Shown: positions 10,561 to 20,381 of the stretch, one piece after another | Layout of the letters: each line of letters starts with the position of its first letter | Numbering within the stretch: position 1 is the first letter of the stretch | IMG/VR virus record: IMGVR_UViG_3300017971_005357 | Span: 1-27,080 of that record | DNA from: a virus | DNA length: 27,080 nucleotides | Strand: one strand, 5' to 3' | Program-made: the position numbers and the translations under genes | Notes under the pieces: model-generated | Told to the model about the DNA's origin: nothing | What the model saw: the letters and a program-made list of their open reading frames with translations, nothing else | Database searches by the model: none

Positions 10561-11255
10561 CCGGAGACCACCACCTGACCACCGATCAGCTGATCGCGTT
10601 CGCTCGAGCCCGTCTGGAGCTGGACGCCCTGATCAAGCTGGGCGATCTGAACCAGGTCGCCACGCTGATCCCGCTGTACTTCGTCCAGCCCGACAGGAAG
10701 CCCAACCAGGAGCAGGCGCCCGATCCCTTCGTAGTGGCGATCGCCTGGCAGGCCGAAGGCCCCAGCCGCGGCGTGGCCCGCTTCGTCACCGTGAAGGACC
10801 GCGAAGCCCAGGCGGCCGGCGAGCTGCCCGACCTGGACGATCCCCACCCGATCCCGTTGCCCTGGTGGTCCGACCCGGCCGGGAAGCAGTACCAGCTGAA
10901 CCGGACGCGCCGGAAGGACGGCGCCGACGCCGTGTACGTGTCCCGGCAGCTCACCACGCAGATCGCTTTCCTCGAAGCGATCGCCGTCGCCGTCCAGCTG
11001 AACCTGACGATCAGCTTCGTCTATGCGAAGCCCGGCCACGCCGACGAAGTGCGCAAGGTGGTCGCCCGCTGGGTGGGTGGACGGAACGGGAACCTGTTGG
11101 GCGGCGACGACCTGAACCGACCGACCGACGATCCCGACCGTCCCGGCGCCCCCCGTACCTTCCGGGTCGACCGGATCAGGGGCCTGGAGCTGTTGGCCGA
11201 CGAGCTGCCGCGCTGGGACGACGGGGCCTGGGTTCGAGCCCGTGGGGGTGAGTAG
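10557..11255 (+). CDS. WYL-domain-like protein in the replication block
   Basis: A 232-residue protein. ATG 10557 overlaps the dnaB stop (ATGA); an ATG at 10545 is possible but less consistent with the neighbours. The C-terminal part, about residues 140-225, resembles a WYL ligand/nucleic-acid-sensing domain: an aliphatic strand L-N-L-T-I-S-F-V-Y, a glycine-rich turn, and R-T-F-R-V-D-R-I-R-G-L-E-L-L, the usual end of that domain. The WYL triad itself is not obvious and no N-terminal winged helix is clear. The first codons include an exact CCGGAGACCACC box (10561-10572), here inside the gene. A role in replication or in responding to defence is inference only. Confidence 0.5.
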   Translation: MTGDHHLTTDQLIAFARARLELDALIKLGDLNQVATLIPLYFVQPDRKPNQEQAPDPFVVAIAWQAEGPSRGVARFVTVKDREAQAAGELPDLDDPHPIPLPWWSDPAGKQYQLNRTRRKDGADAVYVSRQLTTQIAFLEAIAVAVQLNLTISFVYAKPGHADEVRKVVARWVGGRNGNLLGGDDLNRPTDDPDRPGAPRTFRVDRIRGLELLADELPRWDDGAWVRARGGE

Positions 11256-12286
11256 TGGGCCGGACAGCGATCGAGTGGACGGAGCGCAGCCTGAACCCTG
11301 GGATCTTCGGCTGTACGAAGATCAGCCCGGCCTGCGACCACTGCTACGCCGTGCGCATGGCGCACAGGTTGGCCGGGTCGGGGATCTACCCGGAAGGGAT
11401 CACCCGTCACGAGCTGGACACGGGGACCGACTGGACCGGCCGTGTGGTCGTCAGCCGTGACCGCGCGATCCACGCCTTCGAGCAGCTGGCGCGGAAGCCG
11501 GCGAAGCCGACCCGCGTGTTCGTGACCAGCATGGCCGATCTGTTTCACCGTCACGTGCCGGACGAACACCTGGCGCTGGTGTTCGGTGCCATGGCGTCCC
11601 GGCCCGAGTACGTGTTCCTGGTGCTGACGAAGCGTGCCGCGCGCCTGGCAGAGTGGGCGCAGATCCGCGGCGCCGTGTTCCCCTGGCCGTCGAACGTGTG
11701 GGCCGGTGTCACCGTCGAAAACCAGGAGCAGGCGAACCGGCGAGTCCCGGCGCTGCTCCAGGTGCCGGCCCCGGTCCGCTTCGTCAGCTGCGAGCCCCTG
11801 TTGGGGCCTGTGGACCTGACCGACGTGACCACCAGCGGCCGGCACGTCCAGGTGTTCCGCGACAGCGTGGACGCCCTGACCGGGCGCCGCTTCCGCGACG
11901 TGGGCGACGGCGCCGTCGAGTACCCGGCCACCCCCGACACGATCGGCTGGGTGATCGCCGGTGGCGAGTCCGGCCCCGGCGCCAGGCCGACACACCCCGA
12001 CTGGTCCCGGTGGCTGCGAGATCAGGCCGTCGCCGCTGGCGTCCCGTTCCTGTGGAAACAGTGGGGGGCCTGGCGCCCCGGCAGCGTCGACAGCTGGCTC
12101 GAGGACCGCGAAGTGAAGCGGTACAGCCTGGTCGACCCCCAGGGCGCCGTGACGTACACCGACACCCTGCCGATCACCACCGGCCCCGGCGTGGCCTGCC
12201 TGGGCCTGGCCGGGAAGCGGTACGCCGGCCGCGAGCTGGACGGCCGGACCTGGGACGAAGCGCCGGACCTGGGGGTGACGCCATGA
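11255..12286 (+). CDS. Phage Gp37/Gp68 family protein (DUF5131)
   Basis: A 343-residue protein. GTG 11255 shares one base with the upstream TAG. The N-terminus has the hallmark of this widespread phage and plasmid family: I-E-W-T-E-R-S-L-N-P followed by C-T-K-I-S-P-A-C-D-H-C-Y-A, a Cys-x6-Cys-x2-Cys cluster that resembles an iron-sulfur or radical-SAM-type site. Further family marks are V-L-T-K-R, F-V-S-C-E-P-L-L-G, V-I-A-G-G-E-S-G and the terminal F-L-W-K-Q-W-G-A-W. The biochemical activity of the family is not established to my knowledge. Its place among replication genes suggests DNA or nucleotide chemistry. Confidence 0.85.
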   Translation: MGRTAIEWTERSLNPGIFGCTKISPACDHCYAVRMAHRLAGSGIYPEGITRHELDTGTDWTGRVVVSRDRAIHAFEQLARKPAKPTRVFVTSMADLFHRHVPDEHLALVFGAMASRPEYVFLVLTKRAARLAEWAQIRGAVFPWPSNVWAGVTVENQEQANRRVPALLQVPAPVRFVSCEPLLGPVDLTDVTTSGRHVQVFRDSVDALTGRRFRDVGDGAVEYPATPDTIGWVIAGGESGPGARPTHPDWSRWLRDQAVAAGVPFLWKQWGAWRPGSVDSWLEDREVKRYSLVDPQGAVTYTDTLPITTGPGVACLGLAGKRYAGRELDGRTWDEAPDLGVTP

Positions 12287-13735: not shown

Positions 13736-14408
13736 GCAGGGCATGGGCGGCGTGTACGCAGAGCTGGGCGCGTACTACACAGATCAGCGCGTGGCAGACG
13801 CGATCGCGGCGAACCTTCCGATCAGGGAAGGCGACAGCGTGCTCGAGGGACACGCCGGGGGGGGCGCGATCCTGTCCGCCTTCCTGGCGCTGCCCCGGAA
13901 GCTGGACCTGTACGCCATGGACGTCGACCCGCGCTGCCCGGCCATGACGGCGCCGGCGCCCCGCTACCACCGGCGCGTCCAGTCGTTCCTGGGCGAGCCC
14001 GTGATCTGTACCAGGCCCGACACCGGGCAGGACGTGGTCGCGCAGACAGCGGACCCGTACCCCGACGACTGGCCCAGGCCCACGTGGATCGTGGGGAATC
14101 CCCCCTATGGTGTCCGCGTCCCAGGCCGGAAAAGCGCGTTCCCTGTGGCCCACCACCACGTCAGGCGAGCCCTGGAGCTGACCGGGCGCCACGTGGTCCT
14201 GTTGCTGCGCGCCGGCTTCGCCACGGCCACCAGCTACGTCCACCTGTTGACCGGCGACAACACCCCCAGGGAGCTGTGGTTTCTGTTCCCGCGGCCGGGC
14301 TTCGCCGGCGCCGGGACCGATATGGCGGCCTATGTCGTGATCTGGTGGGACCGCCAGCACGACGGCCCCTGTACGGTCCGCTGGATCGGGTGGAAGGGGC
14401 CGGCGTGA
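13728..14408 (+). CDS. Small N6-adenine-type DNA methyltransferase (NPPY)
   Basis: A 226-residue SAM-dependent methyltransferase. GTG 13728 overlaps the end of the previous gene; ATG 13743 is a possible alternative. The SAM-binding loop appears as Leu39-Glu40-Gly41-His-Ala-Gly-Gly-Gly46, preceded by A-Y-Y-T-D, where many such enzymes have F-x-T-P. The catalytic motif is Asn124-Pro-Pro-Tyr127, followed by G-V-R. The motif order SAM loop, then NPPY, is that of amino-methyltransferases acting on adenine. It is short and has no obvious target-recognition domain, so specificity may be low or supplied by a partner. His in the SAM loop is unusual. Confidence 0.75.
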   Translation: MSRQGMGGVYAELGAYYTDQRVADAIAANLPIREGDSVLEGHAGGGAILSAFLALPRKLDLYAMDVDPRCPAMTAPAPRYHRRVQSFLGEPVICTRPDTGQDVVAQTADPYPDDWPRPTWIVGNPPYGVRVPGRKSAFPVAHHHVRRALELTGRHVVLLLRAGFATATSYVHLLTGDNTPRELWFLFPRPGFAGAGTDMAAYVVIWWDRQHDGPCTVRWIGWKGPA

Positions 14409-14968
14409 AGCGTCACGAGCTGAAGGCCTGGCCGGTGTACTACCAGGCCGTGATCGACGGGGTGAAGCGCGCAGAGCTGCGCCAGGACGATCGGGGCTTC
14501 GCCGTGGGCGACGTGCTGATCCTGCGCGAGTACGACCCGGAAGCCGGCGAGTACACCGGCCGCTGGGCCGCCTGCCAGGTGACGCACAGGATCACCGACG
14601 ACGGCCCGTGGCTGGCGCCGGGCTACGTCTGCCTGTCCTTCGTCCTGCGCTTCGACACCACACGCCAGCTCGAGCCCAGCCCACCGACCAGCGGGACCAC
14701 CCACCAGATCACGACCTGGCGCAGCTACTACCAGTCCATGCTGGACGGCCAGCGCCGGGTGGCGTTCTACCCGACCGATCGGCCCTTCCACGCCGGCGAT
14801 CACTTGCTGGTGAAGGAGCGCGACGTGGTGACGGACCAGATCACCGGAAGGTGGGGCAGCTGGCGCGTGATCAGGGTCGAAACACGCGGAACGCGCCACG
14901 CGCCGGCCATGCTGATCGTGGATCGTGAGTTTTCCCATGATCAGCCGGCCGTCGATCCCGTCCACTAG
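14405..14968 (+). CDS. Tandem ASCH/DUF3850 protein
   Basis: A 187-residue protein with GTG 14405 overlapping the previous stop (GTGA). It holds two copies of the same module. Copy 1 (residues about 4-80): H-E-L-K-A-W-P-V-Y-Y-Q-A-V-I-D-G, then R-A-E-L-R, V-G-D and T-G-R-W, ending G-Y-V-C-L-S-F. Copy 2 (about 100-176): H-Q-I-T-T-W-R-S-Y-Y-Q-S-M-L-D-G, then R-V-A-F-Y, A-G-D and T-G-R-W. Copy 1 is a standard DUF3850, an ASCH-like fold thought to bind RNA or modified nucleotides. In copy 2 the conserved Ala-Glu-Leu is Val-Ala-Phe, so it may have lost activity or changed ligand. The gene ends 33 bp before the next promoter region. Confidence 0.8.
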   Translation: MKRHELKAWPVYYQAVIDGVKRAELRQDDRGFAVGDVLILREYDPEAGEYTGRWAACQVTHRITDDGPWLAPGYVCLSFVLRFDTTRQLEPSPPTSGTTHQITTWRSYYQSMLDGQRRVAFYPTDRPFHAGDHLLVKERDVVTDQITGRWGSWRVIRVETRGTRHAPAMLIVDREFSHDQPAVDPVH

Positions 14969-15054: not shown

Positions 15055-17832
15055 ATGACGAACGCAGCCACCCCGACCACCCCGACCACCACCCCGGCCG
15101 ACGCACCCGCGATCATGGTCGGCCTGCCCTTCAGTACCCGCGGGAAGCTGATCGACGCCGCCCAGGCCGTCGGCGCCCCGATCCTGATCAGCGCCGGCAG
15201 CCTGCACCGTCGCCGCCGTCGCCCTGACGCGAACGGCGAGCGCCCCTGGTCGTTCTGCCGGATCGGTGACGCCGCCTGGCTGAATAACCGCGGCGCCTGC
15301 CTGGACAGCGCGGGCTTCGTCGCCATGCGCCAGGGTGGGTACAGGTGGACCGTCAGCGAGTACGTGGAAATGGTCGTGACCAACCACGGCGACGACAACA
15401 GCTGCCAGCCCTTCCCCTGGATCTGGTGGTCCGCGATGGACTATTGCTGCGAGCAGGAGATCGCCGCGGATCGCGCCCAGGTTGACCACCGGATCGACCT
15501 GACGATCGCCAGCTACGGCGAGCACCTGGACGAGCTGGACTACTGGCAGGACGAAGGCGTGACCGACGTGCCGGACCCGATGCCGGTGCTTCAGGGCCGC
15601 GTGCCTGCCGACTATCTGCGCTGCGCCCAGGGGATCGCCGCCCAGCTCCGCGAGCACGGACGCGACGGCCTGCCGGCCCTGGTCGGTGTCGGGTCCGTCT
15701 GCCGTCGCCAGCTCCACGGCCCCGACGGGCTCCTGACCGTTCTGGACGCCCTGCACGCGGCGCTCCCGGCCGGCGTCCAGCTGCACCTGTTCGGCGTCAA
15801 GGGCGACGTGCTGCCCCACCTGGTCACGCGCTACCCCGGCCGCGTCCAGTCGATCGACAGCATGGCCTGGGACTACGCCGCGCGCATGGACGCCAGGAAG
15901 GCCGGCGAGCGGAACACCGTGGACAACCGGGCCGCCCACCTGATCAGCTGGTACACCGATCAGGCCGCGAAGCTGGCCCAGGCCTTCGAGCAGGACGACG
16001 GCGACGACGATCCCGACACCGACGGCGAGCGCGCCCCGGCCGACGACACCGACACCGACAGCGACCAGCTGGACCTGTTCGACGCCGACCCGCGCTGCCC
16101 GTACTGCGACACCGAGATCGAGCTGGACGGCCTGATCAGCCCCGACGGCGACACCATGGTCGACTGGCTGCCGTGCTGCCAGGACGCGCTGGACCACGTG
16201 CAGCTGTACGGCTGGGACGACTACGCCGGCGAGCGCGACGTGGACACGTACAACCGCTGTACAGGCGAGCAGGCACACCACCTTGACCATGACGAAGGCG
16301 ACAGCCTGGCCCTGTGGAAGCTGGAGATCGTCAACCCCGGCCCCGGCGTCCGTGGCTGGCAGACGGACGTGTTCGCGGACGTGACGAAGCACCACCGACA
16401 CCACCGGGCGCCCCAGGGGTGGAAGTACGGGATCGCCGTGTACAACGGTCGGAAGCGGGTGGGCGTGGCCGTCGTCGGCCGCCCCGTGTCCCGTCACCTT
16501 CAGGCCCAGGAGCCCTACACGCTGGAGATCACCCGCGTCTGTACCTGGGGATCGCGCAGCCAGCGCAGGAACGCGGCGTCGAAGCTGTACGGGGCCGCCT
16601 GCCGGGAAGCGAAGCGCCGCGGGTACAAAGCCGTGATCACGTACACCCTGGCCGACGTGGAAAACGGATCGAGCCTGAAGGCGTCCAACTTCACCGACGA
16701 GCACCAGACGAAGGGTGGCAGCTGGGACCGTCCCAGCCGCGGCCGTGACGACAAGGCCCCGACCGGCCAGAAAATCCGGTGGCGCCGGTGGCTGTCGAAG
16801 TGGCGCCCCCCTGTCGAGGAGCAGGACGACCAGGACCAGCTCGAGCAGGCCCCGGCGACGGCCGACCAGGACGCCCCCGTGTCGTCCCCTGACGCGGCCG
16901 ACGAGCGCCTGGCAGCTTCCGACCCCCAGGACGACGCCCAGGACGCCCCACGGACGCCACAGGCGAACGTCGACAACGACGGGGGCATGGACGACGGGCC
17001 GACGGTGGACGGCCTGCGCCTGACGTGCGAACGCTGCCGCCAGCCCATGCGCCAGGTGGTGCAGCTGTTGGGCGGCGACTACTACGTGCAGCCCTGGCAC
17101 GCAGACGGGAAGCGATCCCGGTACGTCAGCGAGATCGATCCGGACGTGTGCGCCCCCTGTGGCGACGAGCTGATCGAAGCCTGCGAGCAGTACCACGCCA
17201 GCCTGGACCCTCGCGCGACGATCTGCGACAGCTGCGACGGCGATCCCGCGAGCTGCCCGGCGCTCCAGGCCGGCGACGACGACTGCGACGACGACTGCGA
17301 CGACGACTGCGACGGCGACGACGACGGGGACTGCGATGGCCCACCAGGAACGGACGAAGGCGCAGAACCAGCCGAAAACAGCCCCCAGGACAACGACTGC
17401 GACGACTGCGACGGCGACGACCAGGCCGACGCCTGGACGGAAGTGATCGAAAGGCTCGAAGGCATGGCCGGGTGTCAGTCCGGCGTGTCGGCGTTCGCGG
17501 ACCTGACGCCCCTGTGGGCTCGCCTGCTCGCCAGCTCGCGCCCGTCCCCCCACGTCTGCGCGGTCACGGCCCTGTCCCTGTGCCTGAACGCGGCAGCGGC
17601 CGACGGCGTGGACCTGGACGACCTGTTCGACGTGTCGACGGCCAGGACGCCCACCACCGATCCGGCCCGGCTGATCGAGGCCCTGAACCTGATCGCCGCG
17701 TGGCTGGTGCTACCAGACAGCCACCCAGGCGCCCCGTGGGCGGCCTTCCTGTCCATGACCGATCCCGACCCCCCACCGGACGACGGCGACGACAGCGACA
17801 CCGACACCGACGGCGACGGGGGGGCCAGGTGA
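15055..17832 (+). CDS. dpdA: DpdA-like DNA deazaguanine transglycosylase fused to an XF1762-type acyltransferase
   Basis: A 925-residue multidomain protein; ATG 15055 follows the box CCGGAGACCACACC. Residues 20-310 match DpdA-type members of the tRNA-guanine transglycosylase superfamily, which insert 7-deazaguanine bases into DNA: Leu-Asp84-Ser-Ala-Gly-Phe, P-V-L-Q-G, Gly211-Val-Gly-Ser-Val-Cys-Arg-Arg-Gln219, L-H-L-F-G-V-K and Ile-Asp268-Ser-Met-Ala-Trp. Asp84 and Asp268 would be the catalytic pair. The usual Cys cluster after this domain is absent, but an acidic linker leads to a zinc ribbon, Cys348-x2-Cys351 and Cys374-Cys375. Residues about 425-566 match XF1762-family GNAT-like proteins: H-H-R-H-H-R, V-G-V-A-V-V-G-R-P-V, L-E-I-T-R-V-C-T, L-Y-G-A-A, V-I-T-Y-T-L and G-G-S-W-D-R-P-S-R. 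Then come Cys pairs (658/661, 699/702, 724/727) and an Asp-Cys repeat tail. Domain calls are from memory of the families. Confidence 0.8.
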   Translation: MTNAATPTTPTTTPADAPAIMVGLPFSTRGKLIDAAQAVGAPILISAGSLHRRRRRPDANGERPWSFCRIGDAAWLNNRGACLDSAGFVAMRQGGYRWTVSEYVEMVVTNHGDDNSCQPFPWIWWSAMDYCCEQEIAADRAQVDHRIDLTIASYGEHLDELDYWQDEGVTDVPDPMPVLQGRVPADYLRCAQGIAAQLREHGRDGLPALVGVGSVCRRQLHGPDGLLTVLDALHAALPAGVQLHLFGVKGDVLPHLVTRYPGRVQSIDSMAWDYAARMDARKAGERNTVDNRAAHLISWYTDQAAKLAQAFEQDDGDDDPDTDGERAPADDTDTDSDQLDLFDADPRCPYCDTEIELDGLISPDGDTMVDWLPCCQDALDHVQLYGWDDYAGERDVDTYNRCTGEQAHHLDHDEGDSLALWKLEIVNPGPGVRGWQTDVFADVTKHHRHHRAPQGWKYGIAVYNGRKRVGVAVVGRPVSRHLQAQEPYTLEITRVCTWGSRSQRRNAASKLYGAACREAKRRGYKAVITYTLADVENGSSLKASNFTDEHQTKGGSWDRPSRGRDDKAPTGQKIRWRRWLSKWRPPVEEQDDQDQLEQAPATADQDAPVSSPDAADERLAASDPQDDAQDAPRTPQANVDNDGGMDDGPTVDGLRLTCERCRQPMRQVVQLLGGDYYVQPWHADGKRSRYVSEIDPDVCAPCGDELIEACEQYHASLDPRATICDSCDGDPASCPALQAGDDDCDDDCDDDCDGDDDGDCDGPPGTDEGAEPAENSPQDNDCDDCDGDDQADAWTEVIERLEGMAGCQSGVSAFADLTPLWARLLASSRPSPHVCAVTALSLCLNAAAADGVDLDDLFDVSTARTPTTDPARLIEALNLIAAWLVLPDSHPGAPWAAFLSMTDPDPPPDDGDDSDTDTDGDGGAR
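17275..17310 (+). repeat. Three perfect 12-bp repeats encoding Asp-Asp-Asp-Cys
   Basis: GACGACGACTGC is repeated three times without a mismatch at 17275, 17287 and 17299, coding for residues 741-752 of the DpdA fusion protein. Looser copies follow up to about 17425 (D-C-D-G and D-C-D-D-C-D). Regularly spaced cysteines in an acidic tract could bind metal ions; recent expansion by slippage is likely because the units are identical. Confidence 0.9.
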
Positions 17833-19070: not shown

Positions 19071-20381
19071 ATGACCGACGAAGCACCGACGACGGATCAC
19101 CCTGCGACCTGGTGGCCTGCGACGAAGCTGCACCCGTGGGCTGAAAACCCGGTCGAACACCCACCGGAACAGATCGCGGAGATCCGCGAGTCCCTGAAGC
19201 TGAACGGCTGGGGGGACGTGCTGGTGGCCCACTGGCCCAGCTGTCGGCTGATCGGTGGTCACGGGACGCACCAGGCCGCGCTCGAGCTGCTACGCGACGA
19301 CCCGGCCTGGTGTCCTGACGGCTGTCCAGAGCCCGGCCTGGTCCCCGTGCGCTTCCGGACAGGCCCCTGGGACGAACAGGAAGCCCTGGCCCTGGCCCTG
19401 AACCACGCCACCGAAGGCCGGAAGTACCGATCGGCCGTGCTGGGCGGCGTGCTGAAGCGGATCGAGGATCGCCGCGAAGCGGGCCAGCGGGTCGGCTTCC
19501 ACGGCTTCCCCGTGTCCGACGTGCGCCGACACCTTCGACGCTTCCGGCAGCCAGCCACGGACCCGTCGACCGTCCCCGACCCTGGCCCCGGCGAGCTGCC
19601 CGACACCCCGGCGTCGAAGCGCGGCGAGCTGTACCAGCTGGGCGATCACCGGCTGATCTGTGGCGACAGCACGGACGCCGACACCCAGGATCGCCTGTTC
19701 GACGGCCAGGCGCCGGACGTGTGCCTGACCGATCCGCCGTACTGTTCGGGGGGCTTTCAGGAAAGCGGGAAGGCAGCCGGATCAGTCGGCACCCGCGGCG
19801 ACGAAATGATCGCCAGGGACACCCTGTCCACCCGTGGCTATCAAGCCCTGATGCGCCGTGTCCTGGGCCTGACGCCGGCCGGGGTGGTGTACGTGTTCAC
19901 CGACTGGCGTATGTGGATCAACCTGTTCGACGTGGTGGAGGAGGCCGGGTACGGCGTCCGAAACATGATCGTGTGGGACAAGGGGACGCCGGGCATGGGG
20001 GTCGGCTGGCGCCACCAGCACGAGCTGATCATGGCCGCGATCAACGTCCGATCGCCGTTCGACCCGTCGAAGGCCCAGGGGAACGTGCTGGACGTGGACG
20101 CGGCCGGCCTGCTCCTGAAGGCGAAGCGCACGGGGAACAGGCTCCACGCCACGGAAAAGCCGGTCGATCTGCTACACACGATCCTGACCGTGACCGACCT
20201 GTGCGAGCGGGTACACGATCCCTTTGCCGGGTCGGGGCCGACCCTGATCGCCGCGGCCCAGGCCGGCCGGACCTGGTACGGAATGGAGCTGTCCCCCCAT
20301 TACTGCGACGTGACGCGCCGGCGCTGGACCGCCTGGGCGAAGGAAGCCGGGATCGAACCTGGGCCGGGGGCGCTGGAGTGA
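19071..20381 (+). CDS. ParB-like domain fused to DNA methyltransferase (DPPY)
   Basis: A 436-residue protein; ATG 19071 is preceded by CAGGAG. Residues about 15-120 are a ParB/Srx-type domain: H-P-W-A-E-N-P, I-A-E-I-R-E-S-L-K-L-N-G-W and the box Gly62-Gly63-His64-Gly65. Residues about 180-430 are an amino-methyltransferase with Asp221-Pro-Pro-Tyr224 before D383-P-F-A-G-S-G389, the permuted (beta-class) order used for N6-adenine or N4-cytosine. The fusion is frequent in phages and mobile elements; the ParB part probably binds DNA or a nucleotide cofactor. A -10-like TACCGT lies 20 bp before the start codon, but I see no matching -35. It is likely to methylate phage DNA and protect it from host nucleases. 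Confidence 0.87.
   Translation: MTDEAPTTDHPATWWPATKLHPWAENPVEHPPEQIAEIRESLKLNGWGDVLVAHWPSCRLIGGHGTHQAALELLRDDPAWCPDGCPEPGLVPVRFRTGPWDEQEALALALNHATEGRKYRSAVLGGVLKRIEDRREAGQRVGFHGFPVSDVRRHLRRFRQPATDPSTVPDPGPGELPDTPASKRGELYQLGDHRLICGDSTDADTQDRLFDGQAPDVCLTDPPYCSGGFQESGKAAGSVGTRGDEMIARDTLSTRGYQALMRRVLGLTPAGVVYVFTDWRMWINLFDVVEEAGYGVRNMIVWDKGTPGMGVGWRHQHELIMAAINVRSPFDPSKAQGNVLDVDAAGLLLKAKRTGNRLHATEKPVDLLHTILTVTDLCERVHDPFAGSGPTLIAAAQAGRTWYGMELSPHYCDVTRRRWTAWAKEAGIEPGPGALE

Follow-up and report, generated by a model that had tools for sequence, protein, structure and literature searches.

A viral protein that joins a DpdA-type transglycosylase to a Mom-like XF1762 domain, and recurrent pairing of dpdA with mom on mobile DNA

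The fusion gene and its surroundings

The DNA analyzed here, referred to below as the window, is a 27-kb virus fragment (27,080 nucleotides, 70% GC; IMG/VR record IMGVR_UViG_3300017971_005357) whose genes include SbcC/SbcD, a DnaB helicase, a DUF5131 protein (phrog_2045; 11255-12286), a ParB-methyltransferase, an endolysin, and a terminase small subunit. Among them lies one uninterrupted 925-aa frame on the plus strand, with an ATG start and no internal stop, laid out as follows:

15055..17832, + strand: the single ORF, comprising DpdA, candidate clamp motif, zinc ribbon, XF1762/Mom-like domain, and Cys-rich acidic tail (profiles and third-position GC)
15112..16008, + strand: DpdA-type transglycosylase domain, aa 20-318 (Pfam PF23859, 50-sequence alignment, AF2 model with Foldseek/VIA)
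15112..16008, + strand: conserved DpdA-domain residues D84, S85, D129, Q180, G211, D268, and R277 (50-sequence alignment)
16066..16080, + strand: QLDLF, aa 338-342, in an acidic linker (matches the beta-clamp-binding consensus QL(S/D)LF)
16096..16179, + strand: zinc ribbon, C348-x2-C351 ... C374-C375 (layout shared with XF1762 proteins of Roseomonas and with a standalone phage protein, L188)
16381..16785, + strand: XF1762/Mom-like GNAT domain, aa 443-577 (profiles, model, residue alignment)
16381..16785, + strand: conserved XF1762-domain residues H447, E491, R494, S509, E536, and K573 (alignment)
17026..17160, + strand: weaker candidate for a second zinc ribbon, C658/C661 ... C699/C702, within the acidic Cys-rich C-terminal part (Pfam DZR, sub-threshold at E=0.0045)

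The initial annotation had described this product as one polypeptide combining a DpdA-like transglycosylase, a zinc ribbon, and an XF1762-type domain. Pfam, PHROG, NCBIfam, and structure models all bear out that assignment, and the motifs from which it was drawn are present in both the DpdA part (D84-S-A-G-F, GVGSVCRR, I-D268-S-MAW) and the XF1762 part (VGRPV, LEITRVCT, GSWDRPSR). Third-codon-position GC is ~0.9 throughout the DpdA part, linker, XF1762 part, and tail, so that one frame codes from end to end, and because the codon-position composition is alike in all segments the join is not a frame artifact within the contig. Two adjacent genes might instead have been joined by an assembly or sequencing error, given that the contig is metagenomic and that our search turned up no second fusion; against this, the same-frame composition over the linker and both domains, the lack of a stop, and the lack of any ATG between the end of DpdA and the zinc ribbon make such an error very improbable.

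Directly upstream of the fusion gene, at 14084-14968, is encoded a protein with two DUF3850/ASCH-type repeats, a possible base reader or eraser, and at 19071-20381 a DNA methyltransferase with ParB-like N-terminal matches adds a third DNA-modification gene to the neighborhood. No match to a preQ0-synthesis family was obtained for any window gene tested, in agreement with the initial annotation. The nearest phage relatives of the endolysin, at 26-30% identity, infect alphaproteobacteria, a weak hint at an alphaproteobacterial host; in such bacteria the Q pathway is usual.

The two halves of the protein and the linker between them

The N-terminal half belongs to the Pfam DpdA family (PF23859; aa 82-287, E=3.2e-20, with a score of 72.8 bits where the cut-off is 27), and PHROG 1279, a queuine-transglycosylase family, matches the same region at E=2e-24. 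It falls far below the NCBIfam equivalog for the DpdA of bacterial dpd clusters (NF041059; 11.2 against 200 bits). In 50 aligned relatives D84, S85, D129, E133, Q180, G181, G211, G213, S214, D268, S269, and R277 are invariant; of these, we take D84, D129, Q180, and D268 to correspond to D102, D156, Q203, and D280 of TGT, judging by motif order and not by a computed alignment. Sequence-only PDB searches were weak (7UI4 at E=0.01 with a DpdA profile), and the fold assignment was settled by the predicted folds. For the AlphaFold model of this part (pLDDT 88, pTM 0.86), the best structural matches are TGTs, with a Foldseek E of 3.7e-9 and VIA Z scores of about 20-22, together with 7UI4, a DNA preQ0 insertase (Z 20.4); alignment and model together describe a TGT-type barrel with conserved catalytic Asp and Gln. 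The superfamily is common to tRNA TGT, and the domain might on that account act on tRNA instead of DNA; with a Pfam DpdA score well over the cut-off, and with fusion and linkage to the DNA-modifying Mom superfamily, we regard a tRNA substrate as highly unlikely. Known DpdA transglycosylases (PF23859, 7UI4, and the phage enzymes of Hutinet et al. 2019, PMC6884629) share the fold, the catalytic residues, and the phage or mobile-element context with the window domain, but are single-domain proteins, whereas the window DpdA is fused to a zinc ribbon and XF1762.

The C-terminal half is a clear member of the XF1762 family (NCBIfam NF045478; E=3e-41, 140.6 against 50 bits, aa 443-577, covering model positions 14-143 of 143), and PHROG 1384, "Mom-like DNA modification protein", matches aa 443-572 at E=6.8e-28. 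The best match of its AlphaFold model (pLDDT 86, pTM 0.81) is phage Mu Mom, 8BV8 (Foldseek E 7.9e-8, Z 15.7), a structure titled as the inactive S124A mutant; other, ordinary GNAT chains reach Z up to 14.8, within about 1 Z unit, so the fold by itself cannot single out Mom. Residues H58, E108, R111, and S124 of Mu Mom align with H447, E491, R494, and S509, and the combination of a GNAT fold like that of Mu Mom with retained H, R, and S places the domain in the Mom superfamily. Unlike Mu Mom, it carries R, L, and L at the positions aligned with Y59, D149, and Y159 (241-aa numbering), and scores below the cut-off of Pfam Mom (PF25680; 23.7 against 27.1 bits); given the replaced residues, the chemistry may differ, and we speak of a Mom-like XF1762 domain and not of a Pfam Mom member. 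By sequence, a PDB search with a profile of XF1762-only rows gave no Mom match, one with a mixed Mom/XF1762 profile matched 8BV8, and when XF1762 was compared with type-ii Mom in hhalign, the probability was only 37%. The structural check proposed in the initial annotation, a TGT fold in one half and a GNAT fold in the other, is answered by the models, which match TGT/DpdA and Mu Mom.

XF1762 is normally a protein of 100-250 aa without DpdA. A zinc ribbon is arranged with XF1762 in the same way in a phage protein of 247 aa that stands alone (L188; E 4e-7 across the ribbon), in a further protein (L198), and in XF1762 proteins encoded by Roseomonas contigs that also bear DpdA. Since ribbon-XF1762 proteins exist on their own, the window protein is best read as DpdA joined to a pre-existing protein of this kind: both halves are known families, and their pairing appears to be new.

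Between the halves, the QLDLF pentapeptide (aa 338-342) lies in a flexible region and matches exactly the bacterial beta-clamp-binding consensus QL(S/D)LF (PMC9690074), from which we infer that the linker may bind the sliding clamp (DnaN). More generally, the tails of DpdA proteins are enriched for clamp-binding-like motifs. Among 118 distinct DpdA tails, 9 contain Q[LIMV]xLF, where shuffled sequences give an expectation of 0.13 and control genes show it in 3 of 1652 tails (0.18%). The looser [QE]xxLF is present in 29 of the 118, against 1.1 from shuffles and 23 of 1652 in the controls. Related proteins do not contribute independent tails to these counts, but the motif is nevertheless spread over divergent phages. 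Clamp-like variants of the QLDLF, QLGLF, QLNLF, and ELTLF types are seen in many DpdA C-tails (for example, L050, L058, L085, L089, and L096). In the literature searched, we found no paper joining DpdA with a clamp motif, and no description of a DpdA-Mom fusion or pairing.

Pairing of dpdA and mom in phages, genomes, and plasmids

A search of about 146 DpdA ORFs yielded no further DpdA-XF1762 fusion, leaving the window protein as the only true one found. Querying viral contigs with the full-length protein returned no relative because low-complexity tail peptides had been chosen as patterns; queries with the domains worked. As separate genes, dpdA and mom do recur together, and their pairing is not a one-off. 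Two near relatives illustrate this: in L002 a Mom gene (PF25680 E 1.7e-7) lies upstream of DpdA, and in MT836715 the Mom gene (PF25680 E 1.5e-22) stands 12 bp downstream of it. We note in passing that the latter scaffold (L007, MT836715.1), recorded as a "faecal phage", carries DpdA and Mom nearly identical to those of Sphingomonas plasmids such as NY01, where the two genes are likewise adjacent with a 12-bp gap, so that it may be plasmid DNA and not a gut phage.

Scanning bacterial genomes for the DpdA clade related to the window protein identified 53 loci, mainly in sphingomonads and Burkholderiales. Across 47 of the genomes concerned there are 38 Mom-like genes. DpdA is on the contig of 25 of these, every one of them co-oriented with it; their distances span 0.7-45 kb, and part of this co-occurrence may reflect no more than shared islands. 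Across 299 genomes of one family, DpdA is found in 20, type-ii Mom in 14, and both in 9 (Fisher p=6e-9, an optimistic value because kinship among the genomes is uncorrected). In 72,556 closed-plasmid records, 104-109 carry DpdA and 85 carry type-ii Mom, and among the plasmid Mom records listed at least 33 of 60 also have DpdA. On four Streptomycetaceae plasmids dpdA and mom are neighbors, with a 4-bp overlap in two of them (Streptomyces NBC_00445 and Kitasatospora pKP058, the gene identities confirmed by Pfam). When a "Mom-linked" label is mapped on the DpdA tree, at least 7 changes are needed and the linked members fall in two deep clades; the partner itself varies, being type-ii Mom in some loci and XF1762 in others. 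Given how often dpdA and mom move together on plasmids and other mobile DNA, it is probable that they work as a single protective system, a DpdA-Mom module that is widespread and apparently undescribed.

The association has clear limits. XF1762 abounds in phages, with at least 575 stretches found, yet DpdA was present on 0 of 50 XF1762-bearing phage contigs and within 4 kb of XF1762 at 0 of 80 loci; as a check of sensitivity, a related profile (A3) recovered DpdA in 47 of 47 known carriers. With XF1762 so common in DpdA-free phages, its substrate need not be an inserted base, and presumably it is able to work on ordinary DNA. Classic mycobacteriophage DpdA genomes have no Mom, and in a broad viral DpdA set a Mom-like gene is found on only 2 of 50 contigs, many of the other 48 being fragments; one of the two lies 2.4 kb downstream of DpdA on the same strand and the other 8 kb away. 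Linkage is thus a feature of particular clades and elements, not a general rule.

On two Sphingobium plasmids, dpdA and mom stand on either side of a PRTRC cassette, a set of genes that to our knowledge has no established function and that the papers listed in a literature search seem to name only in passing. The order on both (pSCLO_2, L269, and pSAMIE_2, L274) is dpdA, PRTRC ParB/E/C/B/A/ThiF, and then the protein whose position coincides with the Mom match. This arrangement suggests a PRTRC role tied to DNA modification. DarB-like, methyltransferase, and PAPS-reductase-like genes likewise lie near DpdA. Such a context supports reading these regions as anti-restriction islands, but PRTRC could also itself take part in the base chemistry.

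A possible two-mark protection enzyme and its rivals

The most economical reading, which we favor with a probability of about 0.5, is that the window protein is a bifunctional DNA-protection enzyme laying two marks near replication forks. The N-terminal DpdA domain would swap guanine in phage DNA for a host-supplied 7-deazaguanine-type base, while the zinc-ribbon/XF1762 domain would tag a base from a CoA-type donor, most likely a normal base; Mu Mom, for its part, modifies adenine. If the QLDLF linker binds the DNA sliding clamp, both marks could be laid on newly replicated DNA, and both would then block host restriction nucleases. The initial annotation had proposed that the protein inserts a deazapurine and then acylates it, or otherwise couples two modification steps: the recurrent dpdA-mom linkage speaks for coupling, and the abundance of DpdA-free XF1762 speaks against acylation of the inserted deazapurine. 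With DpdA partners drawn from different Mom subfamilies as well, two independent marks fit better.

In the sequential scheme, the base put in by DpdA would be a deazaguanine carrying a free amine (such as preQ1), and XF1762 would then acylate this amine to give a new hypermodified guanine. The physical fusion in the window protein and the overlap of dpdA and mom on two Streptomycetaceae plasmids favor tight coupling, the GNAT fold is suited to acylating a primary amine, and three residues in the catalytic region differ between XF1762 and Mu Mom. Free-standing XF1762 and the exchange of Mom subfamilies as partners nevertheless argue against a substrate restricted to deazaguanine, as does the absence of DpdA from 5 of 14 type-ii Mom carrier genomes, and we hold this scheme to be possible but rather unlikely. 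We are more doubtful still of its broadest form, in which a clamp-riding polypeptide both introduces a 7-deazaguanine and goes on to acylate it, dpdA-mom pairs on plasmids of Proteobacteria and Actinomycetota perform the same chemistry, and PRTRC possibly serves as extra biosynthetic machinery. It is also conceivable that one domain alone is catalytic on DNA, the other being a targeting or regulatory module or lacking its base substrate in a host without preQ0/preQ1. A DpdA-only phage need not be modified, as in mycobacteriophage Orion, whose DNA has no detected 7-deazaguanine (PMC6884629), and preQ0 genes were not found among the window genes tested. However, the conserved DpdA residues are all intact, H447, R494, and S509 are kept, and the endolysin relatives weakly point to a type of host in which the precursor pathway is usual, and we judge a single active domain to be improbable.

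A parallel in content and not in architecture is known: jumbo phages such as PA5oct carry both Mom and deazaguanine systems, and the passages of PMC7824862 consulted describe no DpdA-Mom fusion. If real, a DNA-disguise module common to phages and plasmids of two phyla would give a function to many "hypothetical" plasmid dpdA and mom genes, connect base modification with the replication clamp, and provide a clue to the still unexplained PRTRC cassette; DpdA-only phages with seemingly unmodified DNA would also be worth re-testing.

Several further genes were seen at the loci surveyed. One open frame (L136:7479-11603) joins DpdA to a DarB-like methyltransferase/helicase, but the two are separate genes in its relatives (L133/L134). 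A Roseomonas contig that also bears DpdA and a ribbon-XF1762 protein encodes a very large DarB-like antirestriction gene (L185:9637-14916). PAPS-reductase-like (PP-loop) genes recur near DpdA (L130:6275-7210, L140:1925-3127, and L269:18925-20085), and a gene adjoining XF1762 elsewhere (L004:7169-7891) resembles them by eye.
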